Origin: Gammaproteobacteria bacterium
GTDB taxonomy: Bacteria > Pseudomonadota > Gammaproteobacteria > Steroidobacterales > Steroidobacteraceae
Assembly: GCA_016874235.1 (NCBI GenBank)
Contig: VGUJ01000003.1
Location: 124,001-188,000 of the forward strand
Reading direction: 5' to 3'
DNA length: 64,000 nt
Within the stretch, counting starts at the first letter, position 1. Each line of letters begins with the position of its first letter. The notes under the pieces were generated by a model. It made no database searches and was not told the origin of the DNA. It saw only the letters and a list, made by a program, of their open reading frames with translations. Positions 33,271 to 50,982 of this stretch are shown one piece after another. Made by a program: the position numbers and the translations under genes.

Positions 33271-36200
33271 TCACGCCGTCCGGGTCTCGCCGGAGGTCAG
33301 CAGCTTGGCGAAACGCGGGGCCAGCCAACGCTCAAAATCATCGACCACGGAGAACATCGACGGCACGATCACGAGCGTCAGCGCCGTCGACGTGATGAGT
33401 CCGCCGATCACGGCAATACCCATGGGCGCACGAAACCCTCCGGCGGCCAAACTGAGCGCAATCGGTAGCATGCCGGCCACCATCGCGACGGTGGTCATGA
33501 CGATCGGTCGCGCTCGCTTGTGACCCGCTTCAATCAAGGCTTCGAGTTTCGGCGTACCGGCCCGCATCTCCTCGATGGCGAAATCAACGAGCAAAATCGA
33601 GTTCTTGCCGACGATACCCATCAGCATGAGAAAGCCGATGACGACCGGCATCGAGAACGGCTTGCCGGTGAGCATGAGCGCGATGATCGCACCCCCGACC
33701 GAAAGGGGTAACGCCGACAAAATGGTGATCGGCTGAAAGACGCGCGCAAAGAGCAGCACCAGCACCGCAAAAACCAGCAATACGCCAGCGACGATGGCGA
33801 GCGTGAAGTTAGAGGCAAGCTCTTTCAAGAACTCGGCTTGGCCGACTTCGACGAGTCGCACGCCCTCAGGTAAATTTTTGATCTCGGTTAGCGCATAGAC
33901 CTTGGCGAGTGCCGGACCGATCTCGACACCCTTGGCGAGATCCGACTCCACCACGACACGCCGAGTCTGGTTATAGCGACGAATGACCGACGGGCCCTCA
34001 CCGAAGCTAATGTCGGCGACCGCTTTGAGCGGGACCGTCGAACCTGCGGCCGTGCGCACCGGCAGATTCTCGAGCGTCGACAGATCTCGTCGGGATTCTT
34101 CGAGCAGACTCACGCGGATCGGAATCTGGCGATCACTCAAGGAAAACTTCGCCGCATTCTGGGGAAGGTCACCGAGCGTCGCGATACGAATGGTCTGACT
34201 GATTGCCGCAACGGACACGCCAAGCTCGGAGGCGAGATCGAGCCGCGGGCGAACCAACACCTCGGGTCGCTGCATATCGCCATTGACCCGCGGGTCACGC
34301 AACTCTGGCAGCTGACGCATCGCCGCCACAGCACGCTGAGCTGCCGCTTCGATCTTGGCTGGATCCTCACCGGTCAGGAACAAGGTGATCGGACGTCCGC
34401 CCGGCCCGCCATCGTCACCACTGAAGACAACGCGTGCATCGGGAATATCGGCAAAAAGCGGCATGACGCGATCCTGCCACTCTTTTTGGCTGACCGATCG
34501 CTCCTTGCGAGGAACCAAGGTCACGTAGAGCGATGCCGTTCGAACGTCTCCGTCACCGATCGACTCAATGATATCTGTCACCTCGGGCTGCTTTGCGATC
34601 AGCGAGGTGACCTGCGCAGAAATCTTTGCGGTCTGCTCGAGCTGCACACCAGGCGGTAACTCAATATTAATTTGTGAGGATGAAAAATCCTGAGGAGGGA
34701 TCAAGGCCTTCGGTATCGCAACCAAAAGACCGATCGAGAACAGGAAGAACGCAAGCCCACCCAGCAATGTCATGCGCCGATGTTGCAAGGTCCATCGAAG
34801 CGCATCGAGATAGGCCGTCATCATCGGACCATCCGCTGATCGGATGTCATCATGCGACTTGAGTGTGTGGGCCGCGATCAGAGGGGTGATGAGCCGCGCG
34901 ACCAAAAGAGAGAAAAACACCGCCGCGGCGACGGTCAATCCAAACTGTTTGAAGTATTGGCCCGTGAAGCCGCCCATGAAACTCACCGGCACGAACACCG
35001 CAATGATGGTTGCCGAGGTTGCCACCACCGCAAGACCGATTTCGTCGGCAGCATCGAGAGCGGCCTGATAGCCGCTCTTGCCCATCCTCATATGACGGAC
35101 GATGTTCTCGATCTCGACAATGGCGTCGTCCACGAGCACCCCGGCTACAAGCGACAGCGCCAAGAGACTGATGCTGTTGAGGGTGAAATCCTGCCAATAC
35201 ATGAACGCAAAGGTCGGGATTGCCGAAAGCGGAATGGCGAGCGCCGAGATCACGGTGGCTCTCCAATCTCGCAAGAACACGAAGACCACAAGTACGGCGA
35301 GAATCGATCCTTCGATCATCGCCATGAGAGCCGAGCGATACGTCTCCCGGGTGTGTTCGACCGTGGTGAAAACCCGCTTGATTCCGATATCCGGATTTTC
35401 TTTGAGGACGGTTGCGATCTCGGCTTCGACGAGATCGAGCGCCGCGACATCGGAAGCACCGCGCGCCTTGAAGACCCCAAAATTGGTCGCCTGACGGCCG
35501 TTTAATCGCGAGATCGAACGCTGCTCACCCACGGCGTCACGCACGTCGGCAACATCCTGCAAGCGTACGCTTGCACCGCTGGCGAGTCGAATCTGGGTCG
35601 CGCCGAGTTCCAAAGCCGTCTCCGCAGAACCCAGCACTCGGATCGACTGCTCACCGCCGCCTACTTGCGCTCGCCCACCTGGTGCATTGAGGTTGAGCAC
35701 TCGAAGTTGCTGATTGACCTCCGCAGCCGTAATGCCGAGTGCCTGCATGCGAGCCGGGTCGAGCTCGACGCGTATCTCGCGCGATACGCCGCCGCCCCGC
35801 GCCACCTGTGCGACGCCCGGCACCGCGAGCAGACGCTTGCTGATCGTGTTATCCACGAACCAGCTGAGCTGTTCGGGCGAGCGCCCCGTCGTGGCGACGG
35901 CATACCAGGCAATCGCCCCGCCCTCGACATCGATACGGTTGACCTGAGGCTCATCCACACCGTCAGGCAGATCCGATCGGATCTTGCTCACGGCATCGCG
36001 GATATCATTGAGCGCACGATCGATCGGCGTCCCGATCTGGAACTCGATCGTGGTGTTCGAGAATCCTTCGGCCGCGCGCGAACTGATGCTTCGCACATCG
36101 GCGACGCTGCGCACCGCGCCCTCGACCTTCTGTGTGATCTGGGTTTCGATCTCGGGCGGTGCTGCGCCCGGTTGCGACACCTGCACCGAGACCAACGGAA

Positions 36201-36327
36201 AACTGACGTCTGGATTCAGGTTGATCGGAAGCCGCTGAAAGCTCACAAGACCGACGAAGGTCAGCACCATGAAGAGCACGATGGGGAACGTCGGATGACG
36301 AATCGCCCATGCGGACATATTCTTCAT
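33271..36327 (-). CDS. RND efflux pump, inner-membrane transporter (HAE1/AcrB-like)
   Basis: A 1018-residue proton-driven transporter. It starts with a cytoplasmic stretch and a first helix (IVLFMVLTFVGLV), then a porter domain with LPINLNPDVSFPLVSV. Helix 4 carries the proton-relay pair in VDDAIVEIENI, and the second half has the matching IVGKNSILLVDFAIEE. It exports drugs, dyes or lipophilic compounds with its adaptor. The start overlaps the adaptor stop as ATGA. No outer-membrane channel gene is in the operon, so it probably shares a TolC elsewhere. Confidence 0.93.
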   Translation of the reverse strand: MKNMSAWAIRHPTFPIVLFMVLTFVGLVSFQRLPINLNPDVSFPLVSVQVSQPGAAPPEIETQITQKVEGAVRSVADVRSISSRAAEGFSNTTIEFQIGTPIDRALNDIRDAVSKIRSDLPDGVDEPQVNRIDVEGGAIAWYAVATTGRSPEQLSWFVDNTISKRLLAVPGVAQVARGGGVSREIRVELDPARMQALGITAAEVNQQLRVLNLNAPGGRAQVGGGEQSIRVLGSAETALELGATQIRLASGASVRLQDVADVRDAVGEQRSISRLNGRQATNFGVFKARGASDVAALDLVEAEIATVLKENPDIGIKRVFTTVEHTRETYRSALMAMIEGSILAVLVVFVFLRDWRATVISALAIPLSAIPTFAFMYWQDFTLNSISLLALSLVAGVLVDDAIVEIENIVRHMRMGKSGYQAALDAADEIGLAVVATSATIIAVFVPVSFMGGFTGQYFKQFGLTVAAAVFFSLLVARLITPLIAAHTLKSHDDIRSADGPMMTAYLDALRWTLQHRRMTLLGGLAFFLFSIGLLVAIPKALIPPQDFSSSQINIELPPGVQLEQTAKISAQVTSLIAKQPEVTDIIESIGDGDVRTASLYVTLVPRKERSVSQKEWQDRVMPLFADIPDARVVFSGDDGGPGGRPITLFLTGEDPAKIEAAAQRAVAAMRQLPELRDPRVNGDMQRPEVLVRPRLDLASELGVSVAAISQTIRIATLGDLPQNAAKFSLSDRQIPIRVSLLEESRRDLSTLENLPVRTAAGSTVPLKAVADISFGEGPSVIRRYNQTRRVVVESDLAKGVEIGPALAKVYALTEIKNLPEGVRLVEVGQAEFLKELASNFTLAIVAGVLLVFAVLVLLFARVFQPITILSALPLSVGGAIIALMLTGKPFSMPVVIGFLMLMGIVGKNSILLVDFAIEEMRAGTPKLEALIEAGHKRARPIVMTTVAMVAGMLPIALSLAAGGFRAPMGIAVIGGLITSTALTLVIVPSMFSVVDDFERWLAPRFAKLLTSGETRTA

Positions 36328-37448
36328 TGCGCGATCCTCACGGCCTCACCGGCGCGAAGATAAGGACCTGCAGTCGTCACGACCTTTTCACCCCCCTGCA
36401 GACCGCTGCCGATCACCACACCCTCGGCGCGCGAACCTTCGACGCGAACGTCACGGCGCTCAACTTTGCTCGAAGCGTCGACGACGAAGACGTAGTTACC
36501 CGTGGTATCGCTCATCACCGCGGTCTGCGGAAGGAGCGGACGGCGGCCTGAGCCCACCGAGATTTCCCCTCGCGCAAAGGCGCCCGGACGCAGATCCCGA
36601 TTCGCGGGCAGATCGATGCGTACGCTGCCGAGCCGCGTCTGAGGATCGATGACGGCACCGATCAACCGAACCTTGCCTTCGAACGCCTGCTCGACACCCG
36701 TGACTCGAACGCGCGCGGGCTGCCCGGACGCAAGTCGTGGCAAATCGCGCTCCGCGACGTTGCCACGCATTTCGATTCCGCCGGCTCGTCCGAGACGAAA
36801 GAGCGGCGCACCACCAGGGCCCGCCAGTTGACCGACCTCGGCCGAGCGCGTGAGGACGATACCGTCGAAGGGTGCGCGCACGTCGGTTCGACGCAGACGC
36901 GCCTGCGCCTCGGCGAGTTGGGCCGAGACGACTTTGACCTTGGCCCCTGCCGCGATCGCCGCGGCTCCCCGACGCTCGATTTCTTGGGCAGACAACGCGC
37001 CCGTGCTGGCCACCGCTTGCGCACGTCGATAGTCGGCTTCAGCCACGGCCGCATTGGCCTTCGATTCTTGTAATGACGCCTCGAGACTCGCCACTTGAGG
37101 AGCCACCAAAGACGTATCGAGACGAGCGAGCACTTGCCCGGCTTTCACGCGATCACCCACCTCGGCATTGAGCGCCGACACTCGCCCGCCCTCGCCCTCG
37201 GCACTGATCGCCGCCTCGTCACGTGCTGCAATGGCTCCAGAGAACGTGACGACATCGGCAAGCTCCACCGCCTCGACCACCGTGACCGAGACCAACGGCG
37301 GCGGATTGATCGCCCCGTCCTCACGACCGGAAAACACGAAGGTGCGGATCAGCCCAAGCACCGCCAGCAGAAGTAGCGCGGCGAGGGTCCAAAGAATACT
37401 TCGGGGAACGGTAGTCAAAGAAAACTTGAGCGCAGAGAGACGGGACAT
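36324..37448 (-). CDS. RND efflux periplasmic adaptor (membrane fusion protein)
   Basis: A 374-residue HlyD/AcrA-type adaptor. A membrane anchor is at about 20-38. A biotinyl-lipoyl hairpin starts near GDRVKAGQVLARLD, and a coiled-coil hairpin (VASLEASLQESKANAAVAEA...) follows. The barrel part DVRAPFDGIVLTRSAEVGQ closes the lipoyl domain, and GLQGGEKVV lies near the end. GGAAG 6 nt before ATG 37448 supports that start over an ATG seven codons upstream. It is the first gene of a two-gene operon. Confidence 0.92.
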   Translation of the reverse strand: MSRLSALKFSLTTVPRSILWTLAALLLLAVLGLIRTFVFSGREDGAINPPPLVSVTVVEAVELADVVTFSGAIAARDEAAISAEGEGGRVSALNAEVGDRVKAGQVLARLDTSLVAPQVASLEASLQESKANAAVAEADYRRAQAVASTGALSAQEIERRGAAAIAAGAKVKVVSAQLAEAQARLRRTDVRAPFDGIVLTRSAEVGQLAGPGGAPLFRLGRAGGIEMRGNVAERDLPRLASGQPARVRVTGVEQAFEGKVRLIGAVIDPQTRLGSVRIDLPANRDLRPGAFARGEISVGSGRRPLLPQTAVMSDTTGNYVFVVDASSKVERRDVRVEGSRAEGVVIGSGLQGGEKVVTTAGPYLRAGEAVRIAQ

Positions 37449-37480
37449 GATCACTTCCAGGACGGCCAAGAGTTCAAGGT

Positions 37481-37525: not shown

Positions 37526-37559
37526 ACAGTGCGGGCGCGGAGTTTATGCTGTCCCGATC

Positions 37560-38262: not shown

Positions 38263-38865
38263 TTAAAGCGGCTCGCGCGAGAGCCAATCGGCGATCGCCT
38301 CGGCGCGCTCCGGCGGAATTCGAGAGATGATCGCCCGATGAGATTGTCCGATTGAGTTTTGTCCGGCGGCCGCCTCACGCATTTTTCGCTCGAGATAACT
38401 GGCGTGCTGACGGGCGAGCGCAGGGATACCCCTTGATGCCACCGCCTGCCCCCGCGGGCCATGACAGCTCGCGCAACTGCGGGCGAACTCTGCTGCCCCC
38501 GCGTCGAGTGCACGGCCGGATCCCGTAGCGGGCGGCATCACGCGCTGCAGCCCGGCGACGTATCGCGAGACCGCCTCGACCGCCTCGTCGCCAGCCAGAT
38601 GATCGTTGTTTGAGAAATGCTGCATGCGCAGATCCGTTCACGCTCCACGACGAAAACTTTGGAGCTGACGTCTGACGACCTCGGCCGGTTGCCCGCCGAT
38701 CGCAGGCACGCTGCCGTCGATCACACCGCCGCCATCCTTGCCGTGACAGGCTGCGCAGTCGCGATAAAGCTTGGCCCCCGTCGAATCCCAATCTGCTTGC
38801 GCCGCTACGCTAAACCGCAAAAACACCACAGTCTGTGACGTTAAAGAAAAAGTGTTCGCCGCCAA
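38263..38865 (-). pseudogene. Dihaem cytochrome c (c4-like) with in-frame TGA
   Basis: One reading frame encodes two class I haem sites, CAACH and CASCH, in a cytochrome c4-like arrangement: GGQPAEVVRRQLQSFRRGA, a TGA at 38638-38640, then TDLRMQHFSNND, AVEAVSRYVAGL, and the second haem domain ending ADWLSREPL. Related proteins have Arg where the TGA lies (F-R-x-G-A-R), so a CGA to TGA transition is the simplest explanation. The N-terminus lacks a good start or signal peptide (only TTG/GTG). It should be a periplasmic electron carrier if intact. Readthrough or a base-calling error are alternatives. Confidence 0.72.
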
Positions 38866-38967
38866 ATTCTAACTTAATCGCATCCCTCGACTCGCATCTC
38901 GCGCTGCGTCATATACCTACATTCGAGCGGTAGATCGCCCTCGAGGAAGACCTGCCCTCGCCCCATC

Positions 38968-39732
38968 TCAACGCGGCTGCCAGCGAATCGAAACCCCCGC
39001 GCTCGTGAATCGGGCGAACGCATAGACTTCATCGTTGTCTGCGCCGCCATCCAGAAACCGCACACTCGCGCCGACGGACCACTCGTCGTCCATCGATTTC
39101 ATCAGCTTAAGTCCGGCGTCGACGGCATAGCCGGGTCCACCGGCGAGCGCATCGATGTCTCCCTCGACTCGCCAGCCTGAACCCAGAGGGCGTTCGAACG
39201 CGCCGTGCAGCAAGGGTACGAAGCCGGTGTTGTCCTTCTTGGCGGAGAGAGCGCCCTGACGAAGCCGAATGCTGGCATCGCGGATCTTTGCCGTGAATCC
39301 AACCTTCACCACGAGATCGTCACGATCGATCCAACGCCATCGCACCGTGCCTCGCCACGAATTGAACTGATAACGGGCATCGACTGGACCTGAAGCAAAG
39401 TTCGCACCCTGAAAGCGGATCGGATCGGCACTCACGCCCTCGTTCGAGAGCGAAAGCGGAGCGAGCAGCACACGCCACTCCCGTCGTCCACTCGAGGGCC
39501 AAGACAGCTGCACGCGCGGCGCCAGGTAGGGCCCGTCACCGGTCAGGCGATCAAGTGCGAATCTCGATCCGGTCGAGTCGTTCGGCACCTGTACGTCGTT
39601 GCGACCCTGCCATGCCGCATACAAGTCGGTATCGATGACCCAGCCTGAAGTTGAGTTCTCGGCCCGCGCCAAGTCAGCCGAGAAGAAGGTGCTCAAAGAA
39701 ACCAGCGCCATCCCAACGGCGACCCGTCGCAT
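38968..39732 (-). CDS. Secreted or outer-membrane protein of unknown function
   Basis: A 254-residue protein with a Sec signal peptide (MRRVAVGMALVSLSTFFSA, cleavage near ARA-EN). The rest alternates polar and hydrophobic residues with many aromatic ends (LSWPSSGRREWRVLLAPL, RGTVRWRWIDRDDLVVKVGF, SVGASVRFLDGG, final SIRWQPR), suggesting a small beta-barrel. Family not recognised. The start at 39732 is chosen because it begins the signal peptide. It lies 25 bp downstream of ppc on the same strand. Confidence 0.7.
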   Translation of the reverse strand: MRRVAVGMALVSLSTFFSADLARAENSTSGWVIDTDLYAAWQGRNDVQVPNDSTGSRFALDRLTGDGPYLAPRVQLSWPSSGRREWRVLLAPLSLSNEGVSADPIRFQGANFASGPVDARYQFNSWRGTVRWRWIDRDDLVVKVGFTAKIRDASIRLRQGALSAKKDNTGFVPLLHGAFERPLGSGWRVEGDIDALAGGPGYAVDAGLKLMKSMDDEWSVGASVRFLDGGADNDEVYAFARFTSAGVSIRWQPR

Positions 39733-39757
39733 GACAGAACTGCGGTTTCGAATGTGA

Positions 39758-42487
39758 TCAGCCGGTGTCCTGAAGACCTTGAGCAATACCATTGACACTC
39801 GCCAGCAAGGCTTCGAGTAGATCGCGGTCATTTCGTCCTCCTTCCCGCCAGCGGCGCAGCAGATCGACCTGCATGAGATTCATCGGGTCGACGTATGGGT
39901 TGCGCAGCGCCAGAGCCCGCTGCTGCGTTCGATCGCCATCGAGCAAATTCTGTTGATCTTTGACGAGCAGCAGAAGCTCCCGAGTCAGACCGTGCTCCCG
40001 ACGCACTTCGTCGAAGAATCGATGGCCGGACGCGGGATGTAATGAATCGTACTTTGCCGCAATCTGCAGATCAGAGCGTGCCAGCATGATCTCGACGTCG
40101 TCGATCAAGTTACGCAGGAACGTCCATTCGAGCAGGAGATGTCGTAACGTAGAAATCCCGAAAGCCTCGACTGCAGCCTGCAGCCCAGCGCCCGCCCCAT
40201 ACCAACCGGGCAGCAGCATGCGATTCTGCGTCCATGCGAATACCCAAGGCACCGCACGTAACCCCGCAATACCCTCGAGCCCCTCACGTGCGATCGGGCG
40301 ACCACCGATTTGCATATGCTCGATGACGTCGATCGGCGTCACGGCACGAAACCAGTCATGGAAGTCGGTCGAATCATCGACGAGGGCGCAGTACCGCTCT
40401 GCGCTGGCTCGCGAGAGTACATTCGCGATCTTGAGTCGCTCGGCGTCGGCTGACTCAGATCTTTGGCGTCGTCCGGTCGCATTGGCGACGGATAAGGCGC
40501 TGAACGCGCGCTCGAGAGTACGCAACGCAATTGGTCCAAGTCCGTAGTGCTGGATGATTCCCTCACCCTGCTCAGTGAGCTTGAGCCAACCGTTGATCGT
40601 AGACGGCGGCGACGCACCGACGATCGCGTCGATTCGTCCACCCCCACGGGGAAGACTCCCTCCTCGAGCGTGCACGATTCGATGCTCCTCTCCAGCGGCT
40701 GCGAGCGACGACGCGATGGAGCCCTGCGCCTGATGCACGGCAAATCGGGAGGTGACGATCCCTTGGCGCTTGTTCCCCTCTGAGTAGCCAACCAGCACCG
40801 TTTGCTGCCGCCCCCTCGAGTCCAAGTGTCGACGATAGAGCGGCTCGGCGAGCAGTTCGCGCATGATCTCGCCGGCCTGATCCAAGGCCTCAGGGGTGGC
40901 AAACATCGGCGCGAAGTCGATCGCAATCTCGTCCGTCTGCTTATCGAACGCTTCGGCCCAACGAGCGAGCAGTACGGCCGCGAGCACGTCATCGGCTCCC
41001 TCCGTCCCGTTGACAATATACGAACCAATCGCCTCGCCGCCGAATCGCCGACGACACTGCAACATCGCCTCGAAGACCGCGAGTGCTCGCTTTCCCTCCG
41101 CATTCAGCTCGACGCGAGGTCCCATGTCGCGAGCGATCAGATCGACGAGTCGTATCTGACGCTGCGCGCGATTCAACGTGAGCCACTCAGGCTCATCCAA
41201 GGCGCGAGCCAGGATGCCGTGATGGACGCCCGAGTGCTGGCGAACATCGAGCGTCGCCAGGTGGAAGCCGAACGTCGCAATACGACGCTGCAGCCGACGC
41301 ACGGCAAAGAGGCCTGCATGCTCACCGCGATGGGCCAGCAAGCTCTCGACGACCAGATCGATATCGCGCTGTAATTGCGCCGGCCCCTCGTACCCCGAAG
41401 GTCGGCCGTCATACGTTGCCCGTAACCTCTCCGCGACTTGAGTGAGGAACACCCGATACGGCATGCGATCATGACTAGCCGGCGCTGATGAACGCGCGCC
41501 GGGGATCAAGATCAAATATTCTTCACTGCGCTTTTGCAGCGCCGCACTGATGCCGATGCGACTCGCACTCTGCGACAGCAGCTGAGCAAGCGACTGCACC
41601 TCGAGGAAGTACGCGTTGACGATGGTCTGCTGCTGTCGAGCCAGCGTATCTCGCAGACTTTTGGCATGGACGTCGGGATTACCATCCATGTCGCCGCCCA
41701 CCCACGTCCCGAAACGCAGGATGGTCGGCAGTTCAACCTGTCGAGGATCAACCCCGAAGTGTTTGCCCAAAGATTCGGCAATTTCTTCATAGAAGTTTGG
41801 GACGATCCGGTAAAGCACTTCTGCTAGGAAGAACAACACATGCTCGCGCTCATCGGCGACCGTCAAACGCTGACGCGGATGGTCTTCGGTCTGCCAGTGA
41901 GTCGTGAGCTCGACGCGAATTTGACCTGCTGAGGCTCGTCGCTCGTTCGGCGCCAAGGTCGGATTGAGTCGATCGTACAAAAGCTCCGCGAGCTTCAGCT
42001 GTTTACGCAGAATAGTGCGACGAGTGGACTCCGTCGGGTGCGCCATGAACACCGGCATGATGTGTAGCGATCGCAGCAGCTCCATGAGTTCATCGAGAGA
42101 CAAACCCGCTGCCTTGAGTCGGCCGATGGCATCGTCGGCGCCGCCCGGCTGTGGACGCTCCGCATCATCTTGGAAATACGCACGACGCCGACGGATACGA
42201 TGAACCTGCTCGGCGAGATTGACGGCCTGAAACCAACTTGAGAAAGCGCGTTCGAGATCTCGAGCGAGCGCCGGATCGCGACCGGCGACCCGCGCTTCAA
42301 GCTCAGCGTCGGCCGACGCATCACCACGACGCCGCGCGATGGCGAGCGTGCGATCACGCTCCACGATGTCGAACAGTTCGTCACCCCCCTGGTCGCGAAG
42401 CACCTCGCCGACCAAGGTTCCGAGCATATGGACATCGTCACGCAACGCCGCGTGCTTAGGTGGGAACTCGATGTCGTTGCGGCTCAC
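39758..42487 (-). CDS. ppc: Phosphoenolpyruvate carboxylase, divergent active site
   Basis: A 909-residue enzyme, usual PEPC length, ending QGLQDTG. Conserved are the catalytic His segment FMAHPTESTRRTIL, HARGGSLPRGG, LTEQGE and VFAWTQNRMLLPGW. Compared with E. coli PEPC recalled from memory, metal ligand Glu506 (PLFETLDD) aligns with Ala in PMFATPEA, and Asp543 (GYSDSAKDAG) aligns with Glu in GYSEGNKRQG; the Lys is kept. PEPC converts PEP and bicarbonate to oxaloacetate. The family call is secure; normal activity is less certain. It may be a distinct subfamily. Confidence 0.9.
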   Translation of the reverse strand: MSRNDIEFPPKHAALRDDVHMLGTLVGEVLRDQGGDELFDIVERDRTLAIARRRGDASADAELEARVAGRDPALARDLERAFSSWFQAVNLAEQVHRIRRRRAYFQDDAERPQPGGADDAIGRLKAAGLSLDELMELLRSLHIMPVFMAHPTESTRRTILRKQLKLAELLYDRLNPTLAPNERRASAGQIRVELTTHWQTEDHPRQRLTVADEREHVLFFLAEVLYRIVPNFYEEIAESLGKHFGVDPRQVELPTILRFGTWVGGDMDGNPDVHAKSLRDTLARQQQTIVNAYFLEVQSLAQLLSQSASRIGISAALQKRSEEYLILIPGARSSAPASHDRMPYRVFLTQVAERLRATYDGRPSGYEGPAQLQRDIDLVVESLLAHRGEHAGLFAVRRLQRRIATFGFHLATLDVRQHSGVHHGILARALDEPEWLTLNRAQRQIRLVDLIARDMGPRVELNAEGKRALAVFEAMLQCRRRFGGEAIGSYIVNGTEGADDVLAAVLLARWAEAFDKQTDEIAIDFAPMFATPEALDQAGEIMRELLAEPLYRRHLDSRGRQQTVLVGYSEGNKRQGIVTSRFAVHQAQGSIASSLAAAGEEHRIVHARGGSLPRGGGRIDAIVGASPPSTINGWLKLTEQGEGIIQHYGLGPIALRTLERAFSALSVANATGRRQRSESADAERLKIANVLSRASAERYCALVDDSTDFHDWFRAVTPIDVIEHMQIGGRPIAREGLEGIAGLRAVPWVFAWTQNRMLLPGWYGAGAGLQAAVEAFGISTLRHLLLEWTFLRNLIDDVEIMLARSDLQIAAKYDSLHPASGHRFFDEVRREHGLTRELLLLVKDQQNLLDGDRTQQRALALRNPYVDPMNLMQVDLLRRWREGGRNDRDLLEALLASVNGIAQGLQDTG

Positions 42488-42521: not shown

Positions 42522-42553
42522 GAAAAGGCCGGAAGGGAAACCCTTCCGGCCTT
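42522..42553 (-). terminator. Terminator of the TonB-dependent receptor gene
   Basis: A perfect 13-bp stem (AAGGCCGGAAGGG with CCCTTCCGGCCTT) around AAA at 42525-42553, with TTTTC following on the minus strand. It lies 36 bp past the receptor stop. Confidence 0.85.
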
Positions 42554-42588: not shown

Positions 42589-45162
42589 TCAACGGAACGA
42601 GTAGGTGAAATCCACACCGTAGCTCTGGCCCGCCGAGTCGTGGATGAACGACCCGCCGAACTCCGGCGCCGGGATGATTTCCTGGAGATACTCCTCGTCG
42701 GTCACGTTACGGCCCCAGGCCGTGAGGCTGAAGGTGCCGTTGGTGACACCGAGGCGTGCATTGATCGACTGGAACGGATCACGCTGCATCTTCGAGAACT
42801 CACCCTGGCCGAAGCCGAAGTAGGTGAAAAGGTTCGGCAGCCGCTGCTTCTGCACCGGGTGGAACCAGGTCTCGCCGACGAACGAGCCATCGATGCGAGC
42901 GCTCACGGTCCAGTTGGTCGTGATCGGGAACTTGATGTCGATACCCGCGTTGCCCGTGTACTTCGGCGCGTACGGCACTTCACTGCCCTTGGTGTAGGGA
43001 CGACCCGTGTACTTGTCGATCTCGCCGTCGGTGACCGCGTAGCCCGCAAAGAGCGACACGTTTTCGTTGACGTTCCAGCGCGCATCGAGCTCGTAACCCT
43101 TGATCGACACTTCGTCGATGTTGGTGACGACGCGGAGCAGACCGAAGGGACCCGCGAAGAAGTTGAAGAACTGCATGTCCTCCACCTTCGTCTGGAAGGC
43201 CGCGAAGTTCACGCTGATCGTACGATCGGCGAAGAACGACTTGAAGCCCACCTCGGCCGCCTTCGACACTTCCTTGCGGTAGAGGTCGTTGACGTCCGTG
43301 ATGTTGAGCGTGGCATTCGCACCGCAGGTCGGCGGTGGTAACCCGGCCCCTAAACACAGGACCGTGCCACCCGCCCGACCAAAAGCGGAGGCAACGGTCG
43401 CCGCGCTACCCGACGAGTTGAAGCCGCCGCTACGGAAACCGTAACCGTACGAGGCGTACACCGCGAAGTCCTCTGAGGTCTTCCAATTGGCCGACAACTT
43501 CGGCTGCAACTGGCTGAAGCTCTTCGAACGGCTCGGGATCCCTGTCGCTGCGAAAGCCGGATTCGCCGTGTAGGCCGGATTGATGTACGGGTTCGAGAAG
43601 AAGCTGAACCCAACGGTCTGAGCACGGCACGGACCCGACGTGGCCGCGGCGCTCGAGCAGCGCGGCACGTTGTTGTCGACCGAACGATCTTCGACGTCGT
43701 AGCGCACGGCGAGCGCGAGCTCGAGGGCGTCCGTCACGTCGTAGGCCACTTGACCGAACGCCGCAAACACATTACTCGAAAAATCATCGTCATAAAGTAG
43801 ATCAGTCGGATTCTTGCCCGTTGTTGGCACGAAACCCGCGGCCGTCAAGCCACGATCAAAATCAGACCCCTGGGATACGATCACGCGTCGCTGGATGTCA
43901 GCCGCGTAAAGACCCGCAACCCAGCGCGGCGACTGCTCGCCTGACGAAGTGAGACGCAGCTCAAGGCTCGTATCCTGCTGGTCACGCTGCTGATACTGAT
44001 AACCGTCGCAGGTAGTCGGGGAGTACGGTGGCAGAAAGCCCGCACCGTTGTTACCCGCGGGCGTCAACCAAATGCTCGACGGAATACCAAAGAATGGCGG
44101 GATGTAGCCCGGGTTCGACAGCTTCGCGTCGTTGGTGCGGCGGCATGTCGCATCCAAGGAGTACAGCAAGAACGCACCGCTCGTGCCATCGGTGAGGAAG
44201 TAGTTGGTCTGATCATTAAACGCCAAGTAGCTCGAAAGCGTACCCAGCGACGTCTCCCACTCGCCCTTCACCGACAAATTCAGGTTTTCCTGTTCGTTCT
44301 GCGGCGCGATGTTGTTGATGTAGCGAAACGTGTGCTCGTTCGGATTGGCGTAAAACGCGGGCCCGACGAACGGCGCCACGTCGGCGAGCGCAATCGAGGC
44401 GTTGAAGTTGATGGCACCCGCGTCGATGGTCGAGTACTTCGCCTTCACGTCGATATCGCCACCGGCCACCGGGAACAACAAGCGGGCTTGGAAACCCGAC
44501 TCCTCATAAAAATCGACACAGTCGTCGCAGCGGAGGTCGAGGTTGCTCCACTGACCATCCGTCGTGCGCGTATAGGCTGAGATCGAGCCTCGTGCGGAAT
44601 CACCGACGGGGCCACCCAAATAGAAGTTGCCCTTGAAGCTGCCGTACTCGCCGCCACCCAAGCCGATGTCGAACTCGACTGAGTCGCTCGGCTTGCGCGT
44701 GGTGATGATCATGGCGCCGGCCAACGCGTTACGGCCATACAGCGCGCCTTGCGGGCCCTTCAGGATTTCGATCTGCGACACGCCCGAAAGCTCTTGGTTG
44801 AGCGCGTTCGGGTTGGTCTGCAACACGCCGTCGATCACGAGCGCAAAGTTAGTCTCCGCATCGCGCGCGGTGTTGATGCCGCGGATGTTGACTTGAAGGT
44901 CACCGGCTTCGGCCGTCTGCACTTGTGAGACACCGGCCGTCAGGGCGATGAAGTCCTGGGGACGCTCGATGCCGGCGTTCTTGATTTCGGTTTGGGTGAA
45001 AGCCGTGATCGTCACCGGGACGTCTTCGATGCGCTCAGCACGCTGACGAGCGGTCACCACGATTTCTTCGAGCTGCGCCTCTTGCGCGCCAGACTGAGCG
45101 GCCGCCAACACGGCCAGAACGCTCGCCCCGACGAGGGAAAGCTTGTTATTGCGGTAAGACAT
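42589..45162 (-). CDS. TonB-dependent outer-membrane receptor
   Basis: An 857-residue receptor. The signal peptide (about 1-26) is followed by a TonB-box-like EEIVVTARQRAER, a plug domain (DVPVTITAF, VNIRGINTARDAETNF, EILKGPQGALYGRNALAGAM) and a large barrel ending DFTYSFR. This plug type is common in receptors of alpha- and gammaproteobacteria that import glycans, polyphenols or terpenoids rather than iron. The ligand is unknown. GGAGG lies 6 nt before the ATG. It is divergent from an amidohydrolase, which suggests a shared regulon. Confidence 0.93.
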   Translation of the reverse strand: MSYRNNKLSLVGASVLAVLAAAQSGAQEAQLEEIVVTARQRAERIEDVPVTITAFTQTEIKNAGIERPQDFIALTAGVSQVQTAEAGDLQVNIRGINTARDAETNFALVIDGVLQTNPNALNQELSGVSQIEILKGPQGALYGRNALAGAMIITTRKPSDSVEFDIGLGGGEYGSFKGNFYLGGPVGDSARGSISAYTRTTDGQWSNLDLRCDDCVDFYEESGFQARLLFPVAGGDIDVKAKYSTIDAGAINFNASIALADVAPFVGPAFYANPNEHTFRYINNIAPQNEQENLNLSVKGEWETSLGTLSSYLAFNDQTNYFLTDGTSGAFLLYSLDATCRRTNDAKLSNPGYIPPFFGIPSSIWLTPAGNNGAGFLPPYSPTTCDGYQYQQRDQQDTSLELRLTSSGEQSPRWVAGLYAADIQRRVIVSQGSDFDRGLTAAGFVPTTGKNPTDLLYDDDFSSNVFAAFGQVAYDVTDALELALAVRYDVEDRSVDNNVPRCSSAAATSGPCRAQTVGFSFFSNPYINPAYTANPAFAATGIPSRSKSFSQLQPKLSANWKTSEDFAVYASYGYGFRSGGFNSSGSAATVASAFGRAGGTVLCLGAGLPPPTCGANATLNITDVNDLYRKEVSKAAEVGFKSFFADRTISVNFAAFQTKVEDMQFFNFFAGPFGLLRVVTNIDEVSIKGYELDARWNVNENVSLFAGYAVTDGEIDKYTGRPYTKGSEVPYAPKYTGNAGIDIKFPITTNWTVSARIDGSFVGETWFHPVQKQRLPNLFTYFGFGQGEFSKMQRDPFQSINARLGVTNGTFSLTAWGRNVTDEEYLQEIIPAPEFGGSFIHDSAGQSYGVDFTYSFR

Positions 45163-45210
45163 TGATCCTCCGTAACGGTCCCTGAATGGAGTAGGGAAAA
45201 ATACAACTCG

Positions 45211-45240
45211 AGTCTAGGGCGCCGGATGTCGGTGAGGCAA
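45211..45240 (-). promoter_or_regulatory. Predicted promoter of the TonB-dependent receptor
   Basis: On the minus strand TTGCCT (45235-45240), an 18-bp spacer and TAGACT (45211-45216), about 50 bp before the ATG at 45162. A reasonable sigma-70 match. Confidence 0.4.
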
Positions 45241-45269
45241 CGGAAAAACCGCCGTAAAGCCAATTTTAT

Positions 45270-45287
45270 TGTTGTTAAAACGCAACA
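45270..45287. promoter_or_regulatory. Inverted repeat in the receptor/amidohydrolase divergent region
   Basis: TGTTG (45270-45274) and CAACA (45283-45287) form a 5-bp inverted repeat with an 8-bp A+T-rich centre, just upstream of the receptor promoter and within the 237-bp divergent gap. It is a candidate operator. The rest of the gap (45288-45399) shows no gene. Confidence 0.35.
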
Positions 45288-45399
45288 TTTGTGGGCTCGA
45301 GAACGGCCGTATCGGCTCATACGCAGGCACCCGACGGGATGCTTACGGCATGATGGACGCTCGATACCTCAATCATCTCATTCGACAGAGGATTCTCTT

Positions 45400-46266
45400 G
45401 TGAACCGTCATCCGCCCGTACCCGCCATCGACATCGTGAGCGGCATCTGGACTGAGGAGGCCATTTCTCACCGCCCAGGCTGGCAAGACCAATTCTTTGC
45501 CGGAAAGATGAAGTCGAAGACGAATATGAAGGGTGTCCCGCTCGAGGATCAGCTTGCGCAGATGGCGGAGGCCGGCATCGAGCGCGCGTTTCTCTTCGCC
45601 CCGAAGGCGGGCCGCAAAGGCTTGCCGGGGTCCTTCCACCTCCCCTACGAGATCATCGCCCGAGCCATCGAGAAGTATCCCGGACGTTTTTACGGGATGG
45701 CCGGACTAGATCCTTACGAGGGCATGAATGGCGTGCGTGCACTCGAAGATGCCGTGAGGAACATGGGATTCATCGGTGCTCATCTTTATCCGCATTGGTT
45801 TGATCTTCCTCCGGACCATGCGAAGTACTACCCGCTTTACGCCAAGTGCTGTGAACTCGGCGTGCCCATTCAGATGCAGGTGGGCCAATCGATGGTCTAT
45901 TCAAAAGACCAGCCGATGCGCAGCGTAGGACGACCCATTCTGCTCGATGGCATCGCCTGTGATTTTCCGGAGCTCAAACTCATCGGCATCCACGTGGGCA
46001 TTCCCTGGACCGACGAGATGATCGCCATGGCGTGGAAACATGAGAACGTGTTCATCGGCTCCGATGCGCACAGTCCAAAGTATTGGCCGCAGGCCTTCGT
46101 GAACTACATCAATAGTTACGGACAGGACAAAGTGTTGTTCGGCACGGATTTCCCCGTGCTGGGTTTCAAGCGCACCATGGAAGAAGTCCTCGCGCTCGAG
46201 CTTCGCCCCGAGCCGCTACGAAAGTTCTTGCGTGACAACGCGCTACGCGTCTACGGCCTGAAATAA
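45400..46266 (+). CDS. Amidohydrolase-2 family metal-dependent hydrolase/decarboxylase
   Basis: A 288-residue TIM-barrel protein of the ACMSD/amidohydrolase-2 type. It shows AIDIVSGIW near the start (no H-x-H in the usual place), then MAGLDPYEG, GAHLYPHWF, IGIHVGIPWTDEM, GSDAHSPKY and a final FGTDFPVLGFKRT, where the last Asp is the conserved metal-site residue. The GTG at 45400 is preceded by AGAGGA 8 nt upstream; a longer upstream frame has no support. Relatives decarboxylate or hydrolyse aromatic and unsaturated acids. It sits at the edge of the acyl-CoA catabolic cluster. Confidence 0.8.
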   Translation: MNRHPPVPAIDIVSGIWTEEAISHRPGWQDQFFAGKMKSKTNMKGVPLEDQLAQMAEAGIERAFLFAPKAGRKGLPGSFHLPYEIIARAIEKYPGRFYGMAGLDPYEGMNGVRALEDAVRNMGFIGAHLYPHWFDLPPDHAKYYPLYAKCCELGVPIQMQVGQSMVYSKDQPMRSVGRPILLDGIACDFPELKLIGIHVGIPWTDEMIAMAWKHENVFIGSDAHSPKYWPQAFVNYINSYGQDKVLFGTDFPVLGFKRTMEEVLALELRPEPLRKFLRDNALRVYGLK

Positions 46267-46305
46267 CCTTCGCTCCTCGGCGAGTCGCGTTAAGCCGTCG
46301 TCGGG

Positions 46306-47535
46306 TCAATCACCGCCGACACCGACGGACTTCGCCGCCTGCTCGGCGTTGAGTGCCGCTCCGCTCTTCCCGAGTGAATCAATCGTCGCCTGATCGAGAC
46401 CCGCTTCGCGTAGAACCTCTTCAGTGTGTTCGCCGAGGCGCGGTGCCGGCGTACGGATCGACGCAGGCGTCGCGCTGAAGTTGATCGGGAACGACGGCAT
46501 ACGCAGCCGACCTTCGGTCGGATGATCGTAGGACTTCCAGAACCCCGTCGCATTCAGATGTGGATCTTCTGCGAGATTTTCCAACGTATTCACGACGATG
46601 TGCGGAATACCGGAGTGTGCAAACACCTCGAGCCACTCCGCGGTGGTCCGAGTCGCCATGATTTTGGCCGTGGTTTGATTGGTGGCGTCGATATTTCGTA
46701 CGCGATCGGCCAAAGTTTTGAAACGCTCGTCCTCAATGAATTCCCGATGTCCCGTGACGTTGCAGAAACTCACCCAGTGCGCGTCCAGGTAGGGCAACAC
46801 CGCGATATATCCATCCTTGGTTTTGTAGGGCTTACGATCCTTACTCATGAGACGGGTGTAACCGGGTTTACCCTTGGGTGGATCAAACGTCATTCCCCAC
46901 AGATGCTCGGCCATCACCCAGTTCACCATGGTCTCGAACATCGGAACCTCAAGTTCTTGGCCCTCACCCGTCCGCTCACGATGAAAGAGCGCCGCGAGCA
47001 CACCGTAGACCACGGTGATGGCCGTGGTCTTGTCAGCCACCACCGTTGGCAGATAGCGAGGTTCGCCCAGCACGGCGTCATTGAGCATCGCGATGCCGCT
47101 GGCCGCCTGGATTGAATCGTCCAGAGCGCCGAGACGCCCGTAGGGCCCTTTCTTTGAGTACCCGTACGCACCGCAATAAATAATGCGGGGATTGACCTTT
47201 CGCAGGTCGGTGTAATCGAGACCCAGCTTGGTCATCACCTGAGGTCGGTTGTTATGCACGAATACGTCGGTATCTTTGATGAGTGCGAGCAGCGCGTCTC
47301 GGGCGCCGGGAACCCGCAGATCGAGCACGATGCTGCGCTTGTTTCGGTTGCAAGTAAGGTAGAGGGCCGCCATGCCGGGGTTATTGGCCGCCCCGAGCGA
47401 ACGATTGCTGTCGCCCCTCGGCTGCTCGATCTTAATGACGTCGGCACCCATGTCGGCAAACATCTGGCAGGCCCAGGGTCCGAGGACCACGCTCGTCATC
47501 TCGACCACTTTGATCCCGTGCAACGGTCCGCTCAT
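46306..47535 (-). CDS. CaiB/BaiF family III CoA-transferase (copy 1)
   Basis: A 409-residue class III CoA-transferase. It begins LHGIKVVEMTSVVLGPWACQ and has the family segments ADVIKIEQPRGD and NRNKRSIVLDL. LDDSIQAASG supplies the Asp that forms the acyl-anhydride intermediate. These enzymes move CoA between carboxylic acids. It is the only cluster member on the minus strand, which suggests a separate control from the copies at 50979 and 52193. Confidence 0.9.
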   Translation of the reverse strand: MSGPLHGIKVVEMTSVVLGPWACQMFADMGADVIKIEQPRGDSNRSLGAANNPGMAALYLTCNRNKRSIVLDLRVPGARDALLALIKDTDVFVHNNRPQVMTKLGLDYTDLRKVNPRIIYCGAYGYSKKGPYGRLGALDDSIQAASGIAMLNDAVLGEPRYLPTVVADKTTAITVVYGVLAALFHRERTGEGQELEVPMFETMVNWVMAEHLWGMTFDPPKGKPGYTRLMSKDRKPYKTKDGYIAVLPYLDAHWVSFCNVTGHREFIEDERFKTLADRVRNIDATNQTTAKIMATRTTAEWLEVFAHSGIPHIVVNTLENLAEDPHLNATGFWKSYDHPTEGRLRMPSFPINFSATPASIRTPAPRLGEHTEEVLREAGLDQATIDSLGKSGAALNAEQAAKSVGVGGD

Positions 47536-47584
47536 CGGCCATCTCCCAAAAACAACCCCGTCTTTTCAATGATACGCTTGGCTC

Positions 47585-48317
47585 ATGTACTTCGAGCTTT
47601 TCCTCTTTCAAGCTCTCCTGCAGGCGGTCTTGGTCGTCTGGTTGTGGGGGGTCTGGAAATCGACGGGCCTCTTGATCGCGGGACTCTTGCTCATTCCGCA
47701 GACTCATTCCGCAGATTGGCCTCGTCTACGACAATCTCATCGTGGGGGCGGGTCGGTTCATCGGATTCTCGCCGCTTCTCGAGGCGATCTCCTGGCCTCG
47801 CTTCTGGATCCACTGGCTGTTCGGCACTTGGCTCATCGTCGCCTCGGGGATCGCGCTGCGCCTTGCGGGCTTCGAGATCATGCAGGGCACGCGACCCAAG
47901 CTGGTGTTTTGCTCGCTGACGCTCGCTTTGATGTTTTACGACCTGCCCCACTTCTGGAACGAACAACTCTATCCGGTCTGCGAGTTCGGTCTCATTCGTT
48001 ACTCGACTGCGGTATCCGCCGAAACACTCTGCTTCGGAGGTCAGGCGGTGGTCCCCAGCTCGCCTCCGATCCCATCGATCATCACGTGTCTCGTGGTGGT
48101 CGGAAGCGGCGCAGCGCTCATGATCCAGCGCAGATTCCCGTGGATATTCTTGGGCGGCATCTTGACGCTCGCCTCGGCGATGCCTCCGCTGCGAGACTTC
48201 AAGATGGATAACTTTGGCGAGATCCTGATCGCCGGCGGCTGTATCTGGGCGCTCGCGCATTTCTCGCGAGGTCGTCAGCCGGGCCGTCTCGCTCGCTCCT
48301 CCGACGCGACGACGTGA
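47585..48317 (+). pseudogene. Seven-helix membrane protein gene broken by a 13-bp tandem duplication
   Basis: The frame from ATG 47585 (MYFELFLFQALLQAVLVVWL...) leaves register at a perfect 13-bp direct repeat (47690-47715). The rest (AGRFIGFSPLLEAISWPRF ... DNFGEILIAGGCIWALAHF, to TGA 48317) is in the frame that fits exactly if one repeat copy is removed, giving LLIPQIGLVYDNLIVGAG across the join. The restored protein has about 230 residues and seven hydrophobic segments. Its stop overlaps the next gene's GTG. Function not recognised. Loss of one repeat copy would restore it. Confidence 0.78.
47690..47715 (+). repeat. 13-bp perfect tandem duplication
   Basis: CTCATTCCGCAGA occurs twice head to tail (47690-47702 and 47703-47715). 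Its length is not a multiple of three, so it shifts the reading frame of the surrounding membrane-protein gene. Confidence 0.95.
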
Positions 48318-49240
48318 ACGCCGTGTCGCCGACTAAATCAGGTCTGATCGCCCCATGGGGCGCGCTCGCTTGCGCGGCCGCTGCGATGCTGTTCGCAGCC
48401 AAAGGCATCTTCGCGAAAAAACTCTACACCCAAGGCTTGAGCTTCGAGGGTGTGGTCGCCATTCGCGCCATGATCTCACTGCCGCTCTTCTGGTGGTTTG
48501 CGCTGCGACGGGAATCTTTGAGTACCATTGCCACGACGCCGCCACGCGCAATCTTCGTGGCCGCCTTTGCGGGCGCTTTGTGCTACTACGCAGGCGCTCT
48601 GCTCGACTTTCTGGCTTTGACGATGATCGATGCGAGTATCGAGCGGGTACTCATTTTCAGCTATCCCGCGATGGTGGTGATCTTCACGTCCGCACGAGAT
48701 CGGCGCTGGCCCGAACGGCGGGTGTTGGCCGCGACGCTCCTCGCGTACCTCGGCGTCTTTTTCACCATGGGCGGATTCGATCTCGCGGAGCTGCGCGCCA
48801 ACTTACTCGGCGCGCTACTCGTGATCGGCTCCGCTCTGTCTTACGCGGTCTATTTCATGGTGGGCGAGACCTACACCCGGTCAGTCGGCAGCGCTCGATT
48901 TACGCTCATCGCAATGACGGCCGCGACGGCCTGCCTCGTGCCACATTATTTCTTGATCGGCGGGCTACACGAGATGACGACCATCGAACCCTCCGGATGG
49001 TGGTTACTGATCGGTATCGCCGTGTTCTGCATGTTTTTACCCGCCTCTTTCCAGGCCGAGGGAGTACGACGCATCGGCGCGGAACGCGGTGCGGTGCTCT
49101 CCTCAGTCGGTCCACCGACGACGGTGTTACTCGCCTTCACTTTGCTCGACGAGCGCTTATCGGCTTGGCAGTGGGCGGGTATGGCGCTGATCGTTCTTGG
49201 AATCCTGGTGCTCGATCTCGCCCGAACTCGAAAGCCCTAA
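48314..49240 (+). CDS. EamA/DMT-superfamily transporter
   Basis: A 308-residue inner-membrane protein with ten hydrophobic segments in two five-helix EamA repeats. Features include MLFAAKGIFAKKLY in helix 1, LLDFLALTMIDASIERVLIF and RIGAERGAVLSSVGPPTTVL in the second repeat. The family exports metabolites such as amino acids. The GTG at 48314 overlaps the preceding broken gene's TGA as GTGA. Substrate unknown. Confidence 0.88.
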   Translation: MNAVSPTKSGLIAPWGALACAAAAMLFAAKGIFAKKLYTQGLSFEGVVAIRAMISLPLFWWFALRRESLSTIATTPPRAIFVAAFAGALCYYAGALLDFLALTMIDASIERVLIFSYPAMVVIFTSARDRRWPERRVLAATLLAYLGVFFTMGGFDLAELRANLLGALLVIGSALSYAVYFMVGETYTRSVGSARFTLIAMTAATACLVPHYFLIGGLHEMTTIEPSGWWLLIGIAVFCMFLPASFQAEGVRRIGAERGAVLSSVGPPTTVLLAFTLLDERLSAWQWAGMALIVLGILVLDLARTRKP

Positions 49241-49295
49241 GGCGCAGTGCCTATCCGGCGATGGCATACTTTCAGGAAGGAAAGGGAGATCTGTC

Positions 49296-49814
49296 GTGAG
49301 CCATACCCCGATCAAAGTTGCCCCAAACCGTTATCGAGAGTCCTTCGGTCGCTACTACGAGGACTTTGTCGTCGGCGATATCTATGAGCACCGTCCGGGA
49401 CGCACGATCAGCGAAGCCGATAACACTTGGTTCACGCTTCTGACGATGAACACCCATCCGCTGCACTTCGATGTGGAGTACGGCAAGGCCTCGGAGTTCG
49501 GCCGCTGCCTCGTCGCCTCCCCGCTCACGCTCGCCATTCTCGTCGGCATGAGCGTGACCGATGTCAGCCAGAAAGCCATTGCGAACCTCGGCTGGAAAGA
49601 CATTCGCATGACGGCACCGGTGTTTCCCGGTGACACGCTCTACGCCGAGTCCGCGGTACTCGACAAACGCGAGTCGAACTCACGACCGACCGCAGGAGTC
49701 GTCACCGTAAGCACCACCGGCAAGAATCAGGGCGGAAAAGTGATCTGCACCTTCGAGCGCAGCATCCTCGTGGCTAAGCGAGGTCACGCCGTCGAAGACC
49801 GCATGGGCTACTGA
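49296..49814 (+). CDS. MaoC-like acyl-CoA hydratase (hot-dog fold)
   Basis: A 172-residue single-domain hot-dog protein. The MaoC features are GRYYEDFVVGDIYEHRPGRT followed by DNTWFTLLTMNTHPLHFD, which holds the conserved Asn and His of the hydratase site. Next come SPLTLAILVGMSVTD, GWKDIRMTAPVFPGDTLYAE and GHAVEDRMGY at the end. This subgroup resembles mesaconyl-CoA and itaconyl-CoA hydratases and appears often with CitE and CaiB proteins. AGGGAG about 9 nt upstream supports GTG 49296. It starts the five-gene acyl-CoA run. Confidence 0.88.
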   Translation: MSHTPIKVAPNRYRESFGRYYEDFVVGDIYEHRPGRTISEADNTWFTLLTMNTHPLHFDVEYGKASEFGRCLVASPLTLAILVGMSVTDVSQKAIANLGWKDIRMTAPVFPGDTLYAESAVLDKRESNSRPTAGVVTVSTTGKNQGGKVICTFERSILVAKRGHAVEDRMGY

Positions 49815-49836
49815 AATACTTTCGGAGTTCACAGTC

Positions 49837-50982
49837 ATGAGCGAAAACGTCGATCAGGAAATCATCGATAGTATCGAGCGCTGGGCCGAACGCGAACTCA
49901 AACCCATCGCCAAAAAATTCGATCACGCCGACGAGTATCCGCTCGAGATCGTCGAACAGATGAAAGAGCTTGGCCTCTTCGGTGCCACCATCCTCCCGGA
50001 ATATGGCGGCCTCGGACTCTCGGCGTCCACATATGCCCGAATCGTGATGAGCATCGCCTCCATATGGATGGCGCCCGTCGGTATTTTCAACTCTCATCTC
50101 ATCATGGCGGCCTGTGTGCAGCGCCACGGCACCGAAGACCAAAAGAAAAAATGGCTGCCTCGCTTCGCGAGTGGTGACATCCGCGGCGGCATCGGCCTAA
50201 CCGAGCCCAACGCGGGCACCGATCTGCAAGCCATTCGTACGATTGCGCGTCGCGAAGGCGATCATTACGTCATCAATGGAACGAAGACCTGGATCACCAA
50301 CGGCGTTTACGGGAGCTGCTTTGGCGTACTCGCGAAGACCGATCCCGAGGCGCAACCAAGACACAAGGGCATGACGATGTTTTTGTGCGAAAAAGGCGAT
50401 GGGTTTGTTGCGGCCAAGAAAATCCGCAAGCTCGGCTACAAGTCGATCGACAGCGCCGAACTCGTATTCACGGACTTCAGGGTATCCGCCGACAACCTCA
50501 TCGGCGGCATTGAAGGTCGTGGCTTTCAGCAGGCCGTCGGCGGACTCGAACTCGGGCGCATCAACGTGGCAGCACGCGGAGCGGGAATTGCTGCTGGCGC
50601 TCTACGGGATGCCCTGCGCTACGCCCAAGAACGGCAAACCTTCGGCAAACCCATTGCCCAGCATCAGGCGATCCAACTCAAGCTCGCAGACATGGCGACA
50701 CGCGTCGAAGCCGCACGTCTACTCATCGAACAAGCTGCGCGGAAATACGACACCGGCGAGCGTTGCGATCTCGAATCGAGCATGGCGAAGCTCTTCGCCT
50801 CAGAGGCCGGCGTCGAAAACAGTCTCGAAGCCATGCGGATCTTTGGCGGATACAGTTACTCCACCGATTTAGATGTTGAGCGCTACTACCGCGATGCGCC
50901 TCTCATGTGCATCGGCGAAGGCACCAATGAAATGCAGCGCATCATCATCGCGAGACAGTTGATCGAGAGGAATCCCGTTTGA
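49837..50982 (+). CDS. Acyl-CoA dehydrogenase (copy 1)
   Basis: A 381-residue FAD flavoenzyme with the normal acyl-CoA dehydrogenase layout. Residues GIGLTEPNAGTDLQAIRT and YVINGTKTWITNG form the flavin/substrate region. FGGYSYSTDLDVERYYRDA precedes IGEGTNEMQRIII, with the likely catalytic-base Glu region. It introduces a double bond into an acyl-CoA, feeding the MaoC hydratase 22 bp upstream. It is followed by an overlapping CoA-transferase gene. Confidence 0.93.
   Translation: MSENVDQEIIDSIERWAERELKPIAKKFDHADEYPLEIVEQMKELGLFGATILPEYGGLGLSASTYARIVMSIASIWMAPVGIFNSHLIMAACVQRHGTEDQKKKWLPRFASGDIRGGIGLTEPNAGTDLQAIRTIARREGDHYVINGTKTWITNGVYGSCFGVLAKTDPEAQPRHKGMTMFLCEKGDGFVAAKKIRKLGYKSIDSAELVFTDFRVSADNLIGGIEGRGFQQAVGGLELGRINVAARGAGIAAGALRDALRYAQERQTFGKPIAQHQAIQLKLADMATRVEAARLLIEQAARKYDTGERCDLESSMAKLFASEAGVENSLEAMRIFGGYSYSTDLDVERYYRDAPLMCIGEGTNEMQRIIIARQLIERNPV

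Follow-up and report, generated by a model that had tools for sequence, protein, structure and literature searches.

A phosphoenolpyruvate carboxylase-like protein with a changed metal site in a Steroidobacteraceae genome, and signs of piecemeal active-site remodelling across its family

The window, i.e. the whole 64,000-nucleotide stretch of DNA analysed here, carries a gene for a phosphoenolpyruvate carboxylase (PEPC)-like protein. Its residues were mapped on a MAFFT alignment with E. coli K-12 ppc (NC_000913; row L087) as reference. In the E. coli numbering used throughout, we take Glu506 and Asp543 to be the metal ligands, His138 to be the catalytic histidine and Arg587 to have a catalytic role. 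The features are as follows.

39758..42487, minus strand: PEPC-like gene, 909 aa, GTG start, stop included (ORF translation, PF00311, phmmer against 1fiy)
42525..42553, minus strand: 13-pair terminator-like hairpin, in the gap that separates the PEPC-like gene from the TonB-receptor gene upstream of it
42038..42040, minus strand: His150, at the position of catalytic His138 (alignment)
40898..40900, minus strand: Ala530, at the position of metal ligand Glu506 (alignments; directly follows predicted strand 525-529)
40778..40780, minus strand: Glu570, at the position of metal ligand Asp543 (alignments; just past predicted strand 561-567)
40766..40768, minus strand: Arg574, at the position of Asp547, KDAG having become KRQG (alignment)
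40646..40666, minus strand: Arg608 to Arg614, covering the positions of Arg581 and Arg587 (RGGSLPR, glycine loop; alignment)

Terminator-like hairpins occur in the stretch at chance level (3 found against 2.6 expected in shuffles), and the one at 42525..42553 suggests that the PEPC-like gene forms its own transcription unit. In the genus loci with long flanks (the window, L121 and L125), the PEPC-like gene is preceded by a TonB receptor gene and followed by an unassigned ORF; L122 and L127 likewise have a TonB receptor upstream, and ExbB/ExbD-like genes were seen by eye upstream in many other loci of the family. Comparison of 35 loci, comprising 34 named family loci and the window, revealed no common partner gene, the commonest cluster being present in 18. 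In the window itself, the ORF at 38968..39831 (minus strand) overlaps the 3' end of the PEPC-like gene and has no Pfam match; its true start is likely an ATG inside the frame, near 39732, with a signal-peptide-like stretch after it. The TonB receptor, amidohydrolase, CoA-transferase III and acyl-CoA dehydrogenase genes at 42589..50982 look like a degradation cluster, and an RND efflux pump of the AcrB family is encoded with its membrane-fusion protein at 33271..37469 (minus strand).

The frame of the PEPC-like gene contains a single stop, at its end. The protein matched PF00311 over the entire model (positions 1-919 of 919) with 736.5 bits against a cut-off of 22.4, and phmmer aligned E. coli PEPC (1fiy) to it over nearly the full length (E 2.7e-97); the two proteins are 29% identical. 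The AlphaFold model, with 39 sequences, had a mean pLDDT of 91.3 and a pTM of 0.92. The best 50 matches listed for it among solved structures were all PEPCs, in keeping with a predicted PEPC fold, and comparison with 1jqn (a complex of E. coli PEPC with a substrate analogue and Mn2+) gave TM-scores of 0.85/0.88. The full-length PF00311 match and the predicted model thus bear out the PEPC homology and fold which the initial annotation had read from sequence motifs. The score against the NCBIfam equivalog NF000584 (phosphoenolpyruvate carboxylase) was 737.6 bits, below the curated cut-off of 815.

It had further been claimed, by comparison with the E. coli sequence, that Glu506 and Asp543 are replaced by Ala and Glu, that KDAG reads KRQG and that the glycine loop is HARGGSLPRGG. 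MAFFT and phmmer agreed in placing Ala530 and Glu570, and not the canonical Glu and Asp, at the ligand positions; since D543E is conservative, only one carboxylate is lost. The KRQG motif and the glycine loop are also as claimed. Misalignment was rejected as the cause, as the phmmer alignment to 1fiy is free of gaps at the ligand motifs and in their flanks, MAFFT gives the same result, and in the predicted model residues 530 and 570 sit at or just after strand ends. A sequencing accident was rejected too, because genus relatives with 61-85% identity to the window protein show comparable states (A, V or D, and one E, at 506; mostly E at 543). Further changes with respect to E. coli PEPC are S544 to G, G586 to P, D510A, K773R and N881D, while H138, R396, K546, H579, R581, R587, R699, R713 and W248 are unchanged. 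Both catalytic residues are therefore in place (His150, Arg614), as are R396, K546, R581 and R713 (window R416, K573, R608 and R744), which we take to be the PEP-binding basic residues. At K773, R832 and N881, presumably the aspartate/malate effector site, R832 alone is unchanged. The Glu and Asp expected of a Mg-dependent PEPC are both missing from the window protein; a passage of PMC10176493 names a Glu, an Asp and water molecules as what holds the Mg2+ of PEPC, and describes a conserved His as taking the proton from carboxyphosphate.

A PEPC-like homologue was found in 23 of the 24 genomes of the genus. The 21 non-redundant genus rows divide at position 506 into 13 with D, 5 with V, 2 with A and 1 with E, at position 543 into 19 with E and 2 with D, and at position 547 into 14 with Q, 5 with R and 2 with E. 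Exchanged acids, i.e. D506 with E543, are the usual state of the genus. R396, K546, R581 and R587 are present in all 21 rows and R713 in 20. The window protein and L003-L006 form a subclade in which every member has A or V at 506 together with R547; P508, N545 and R547 occur in 5/5 members of this subclade and in 0/16 other genus rows. Two rows with V506/D543 (L007, L008) were placed away from it. The quick LG+G4 tree comprised 99 rows (85 of the family and 14 of a canonical outgroup), on which the 85 family rows formed one clade (SH-aLRT 100) and the genus another (100), so that the distinct subfamily suggested earlier is supported. Because one genus row is E/E and most are D/E, the simplest order of substitution would be D543E, then E506D, then loss of the acid at 506, as read off the tree rather than reconstructed. 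Across 81 rows including the outgroup, the states at 506/543 were D/E in 18, E/D in 54, E/E in 7 and D/D in 2, a coupling of D506 with E543 that is strong by row count but comes down to 4-5 independent pairs, at which level there is no significance. Active-site constraint in A/V506 rows as against D506/E543 rows was 1.08 (0.80-1.43) versus 0.91 (0.73-1.09), a difference that was not significant (column bootstrap). Altered metal use, as the initial annotation proposed, is plausible for the window's genus on these residues.

Across the family, taken as Steroidobacteraceae from the titles of its records (one genus member, L121, is titled Nevskiaceae), a PF00311 match was found in 191 of 200 genomes, and in 111 of the 114 that are at least 90% complete. 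Three genomes of 93-99% completeness (G059, G073 and G104) had no PF00311 match; loss of the gene is therefore possible in the family. Two kinds of PF00311 protein occur: a high-scoring canonical kind (L027-L056), from 30/200 genomes of which 28 have two or more PF00311 matches, and the window kind. For the latter, 101 rows were taken and 85 kept, after removal of 4 shorter than 800 aa and 12 more than 98.5% identical to others, and eight core residues were scored (138, 396, 506, 543, 546, 581, 587 and 713). At least one was changed in 67/85 rows: none in 18, one in 21, two in 38 and three to five in 8. The change affected acids only in 30 rows, basic residues only in 22, both in 15 and neither in 18. 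The part that is lost varies by genus and may be the metal acids, Lys546, Arg713, R396 or the glycine loop, a part of which is deleted in L082; in the window's genus the metal site is changed and the PEP-binding basic residues are kept, and some other genera show the reverse. The cultured Peristeroidobacter agariperforans KA5-B (L144) has D543A and R581Q. Parsimony counted 11 changes at 506, 12 at 543, 12 at 546, 14 at 547, 5 at 713, 4 at 396 and 0 at 138 on the 99-row tree. D510 is lost in 85/85 rows. K773 is kept in 4/85 rows as compared to 77/81 canonical ones, and N881 in 4/85 as compared to 76/81, with which the earlier suggestion of altered regulation is consistent. Taken by its residues, the window protein would be one instance of an active-site remodelling that is family-wide.

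Such a pattern fits diversification of a PEP-binding protein and piecemeal loss in a pseudoenzyme alike. In the latter case carboxylase activity would have been lost long ago, the protein persisting in a structural, metabolite-sensing or partner-binding role, and from so ancient a loss it would follow that different genera lose different catalytic parts. This is what the spread of hits over acids, K546, R713, R396 and glycine loop looks like, with its 22 rows changed in basic residues only beside 30 changed in acids only, and some family genomes do carry another, canonical PEPC (L027-L056, with multiple matches in 28 of 30). However, His138 is His in 85/85 family rows and Arg587 is Arg in 83/85, the PEP-binding basic residues are intact in the window's genus apart from R713 in one row, and no partner gene accompanies the protein family-wide. 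Conservation of His138 and Arg587 favours some retained chemistry, although about 90 aligned positions are invariant in the 85 rows, so that His138 is one among many. We consider a pseudoenzyme rather unlikely.

Changed cores occur outside the family as well, much more rarely. Of 62 non-redundant outgroup rows, 50 keep all eight residues and 12 have at least one change; before removal of duplicates, changes were present in 5/19 rows of L101-L119, which were chosen from a longer list so as to spread over families, and in 8/46 of L151-L200. The 62 rows include the changed rows among 13 that had been excluded from the canonical set on visual inspection, their cores looking changed (L109, L113, L114, L115, L116, L166, L167, L171, L173, L174, L180, L181 and L195) and were put back here, duplicates L155 and L173 and the short L191 being removed. 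All 13 carry core changes, and the figure of 0/81 core changes in the canonical set is therefore partly so by construction; moreover, 30 of its 81 rows are high-scoring PF00311 loci of family genomes, a choice that favours canonical ones. Position 506 is Glu and position 543 is Asp in 81/81 canonical rows; in the outgroup, 506 is Glu in 62/62 and 543 has become Glu in 3. Two PEPC homologues, L166 (Chromatiales) and L167 (Gammaproteobacteria), have the catalytic His changed (H138D), and L166 additionally has K546R and R713H. In two further pairs outside the family, L114/L180 and L116/L195, K546 is replaced by Ala or Ser and the glycine loop is shortened or scrambled; from these pairs, remodelling of PEPC seems to have taken place more than once.

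The gene is under purifying selection. Of 42 pairs that are 80-97.5% identical, the 30 closest had dN/dS values of 0.04-0.20, and internal stops were absent from every PF00311-type match listed for the genus, the family and outside relatives. A pseudogene was rejected on these open frames and dN/dS values. Of 118 positions near-invariant in the 81 canonical rows, 40 fall below 90% in the family, namely 30/45 within active-site segments against 10/73 elsewhere, a contrast whose p value is descriptive because the segments were drawn after the losses were known. For the family, the ratio of amino-acid divergence in active-site segments to that in the rest of the protein was 0.88-1.11, and for the genus 0.69-1.08. 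The corresponding values were 0.32-0.62 for 49 same-type canonical relatives and 0.29-0.73 for the 62 outgroup rows, whose most diverged bin (11 pairs) reached 0.95. As the family ratios exceed the canonical and outgroup ones, the extra constraint on the active site is largely gone in the family, while the whole protein is still constrained. Pairs of close relatives mostly show no faster divergence in the active segments than elsewhere (0.060 against 0.072 for L002/L003), and catalysis may therefore still be under selection. That the gene stays intact while its active site changes piecemeal suggests an enzyme being repurposed.

We also considered a relic heading for loss, a gene decaying in lineages that live on acetyl-CoA substrates and for which PEPC has become unnecessary. 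The three of 114 family genomes at 90% completeness or above that have no PF00311 match would agree with decay, as would the glyoxylate bypass and PEPCK encoded in the window's own genome, against which stand the lack of internal stops in the matches listed and dN/dS far below 1. We regard such a relic as very improbable.

The own genome (1.8 Mb, 95% complete) has one PF00311 match, i.e. the window gene. A search for a second, canonical ppc, advised at the outset, found none in it; within the genus only G016 has an additional canonical PEPC (L025), with 35% identity to the window protein, the second PF00311 place in G022 being a 26-residue piece at a contig end. Archaeal-type PEPC (PF14010) had no match in 13 genomes, those of the window and 12 congeners. 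The possibility that the window protein is a paralogue backed by a canonical copy in the same genome was rejected, there being neither a second PF00311 nor a PF14010 match. Pyruvate carboxylase (PF02436), malic enzyme and ATP-PEPCK gave no match in the own genome; GTP-PEPCK gave one, and its contig C3 carries Pfam matches of isocitrate lyase and malate synthase (36887 to 39335) with some 0.5 kb between them. By these matches, the genome encodes a glyoxylate bypass with PEPCK, and its oxaloacetate supply need not rest on PEPC; since the bypass enzymes and GTP-PEPCK are encoded, the window protein need not be the main source of oxaloacetate. In a survey of carbon enzymes in 13 of the 24 genus genomes, full-length pyruvate carboxylase was found in 0/13 (G020 had a partial match in a 533-aa frame), GTP-PEPCK in 10/13 and a malate synthase match in 13/13, of which four were weaker and two of these cut at a contig end.

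An ordinary PEPC, in which Glu570 with water or another acid holds the metal and which is still anaplerotic, would agree with this being the sole PEPC found in a genome where pyruvate carboxylase and malic enzyme were not found. Most genus rows hold two acids, if in swapped order, the protein is under purifying selection, and 18/85 family rows have all eight core residues. These points have to be set against Glu506/Asp543 in 81/81 canonical rows and Glu506 in every one of the outgroup rows, the loss of D510 throughout the family, an NF000584 score of 737.6 where 815 is required, and the one Glu, one Asp and waters given as Mg2+ ligands in the part of PMC10176493 cited above. We hold an ordinary PEPC to be unlikely; the window protein is probably no longer an ordinary Mg-dependent anaplerotic enzyme.

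Redundancy with pyruvate carboxylase was examined as a cause of relaxation in 25 family genomes outside the genus that have a single PF00311 match and are represented in the alignment. Full-length pyruvate carboxylase was present in 7/7 genomes with an unchanged PEPC core and in 10/18 with a changed one. Relaxation through such redundancy was rejected, as the association is absent or, if anything, the reverse, and the window's own genome has no pyruvate carboxylase match. At least 4 of the 18 changed-core genomes (G043, G052, G057 and G061) have neither full-length pyruvate carboxylase nor an isocitrate lyase match, and the altered PEPC may therefore still be anaplerotic there; oxaloacetate would have to be supplied in these four by the altered PEPC or by PEPCK run towards oxaloacetate, a direction of use that is described in part of PMC8100219.

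The reading that we favour, tentatively and at somewhat short of an even chance, is that of a remodelled PEPC whose function is still based on PEP binding but is not ordinary Mg-dependent carboxylation. The protein would have been inherited vertically with its fold, PEP-binding basic residues, catalytic His and Arg587 retained and its divalent-metal site rebuilt. In the genus, the ligand lengths would first have been exchanged (D506/E543), giving a site that may still hold metal. In the window subclade the carboxylate at 506 would next have been lost and Arg547 would have arisen near Glu543, such that binding of Mg2+ or Mn2+ at the site would now be weak or absent. The protein may bind PEP, and perhaps bicarbonate, with carboxylation slow or partial, for example ending in hydrolysis of PEP to pyruvate. 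A bolder version, which we think improbable, is a metal-free enzyme in which Arg547, salt-bridged to Glu543, replaces the charge of Mg2+ and PEP is turned over with no divalent metal; the stepwise dismantling would then run from E/D through E/E and the exchanged D/E to A or V with E and Arg.

A PF00311 match is usually taken to mean an oxaloacetate-forming carboxylase. If the proteins of this kind are inactive or altered, genome-based predictions of anaplerosis and CO2 fixation for these bacteria are wrong; if they are active, the requirements of PEPC, the metal ligands above all, need widening. Here the gene is under purifying selection in a family that has cultured members, while its catalytic residues have been substituted on many separate occasions. 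The series of graded states found in a single genus amounts to a natural experiment on the dismantling of a metal site. Among the open literature matches listed, as judged by titles and the beginnings of abstracts and with subscription papers mostly outside their range, none dealt with PEPC remodelling of such kind.

Comparison of the window protein with E. coli Ppc (PF00311; 1fiy, 1jqn) reveals homology over the full length, the same predicted fold and shared His138, Arg587 and PEP-binding basic residues, but A/E in place of the E/D metal acids, as well as D547R, D510A, K773R and N881D. Archaeal-type PEPC (PF14010) shares only the name of the reaction with the family of the window protein. 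The canonical PEPCs of Gammaproteobacteria (L151-L200, including those of Woeseiaceae, Stenotrophomonas and Pseudoxanthomonas) are its closest canonical relatives, at most 49% identical to the window protein, with L108 the nearest row, and most of them keep all eight core residues, unlike the window protein. The PEPC-like proteins of Steroidobacteraceae, including that of the cultured strain (L144), belong to the same clade and have likewise undergone piecemeal changes of the active site. In those proteins other residues are hit, whereas the window subclade is distinguished by A/V506, P508, N545 and R547.
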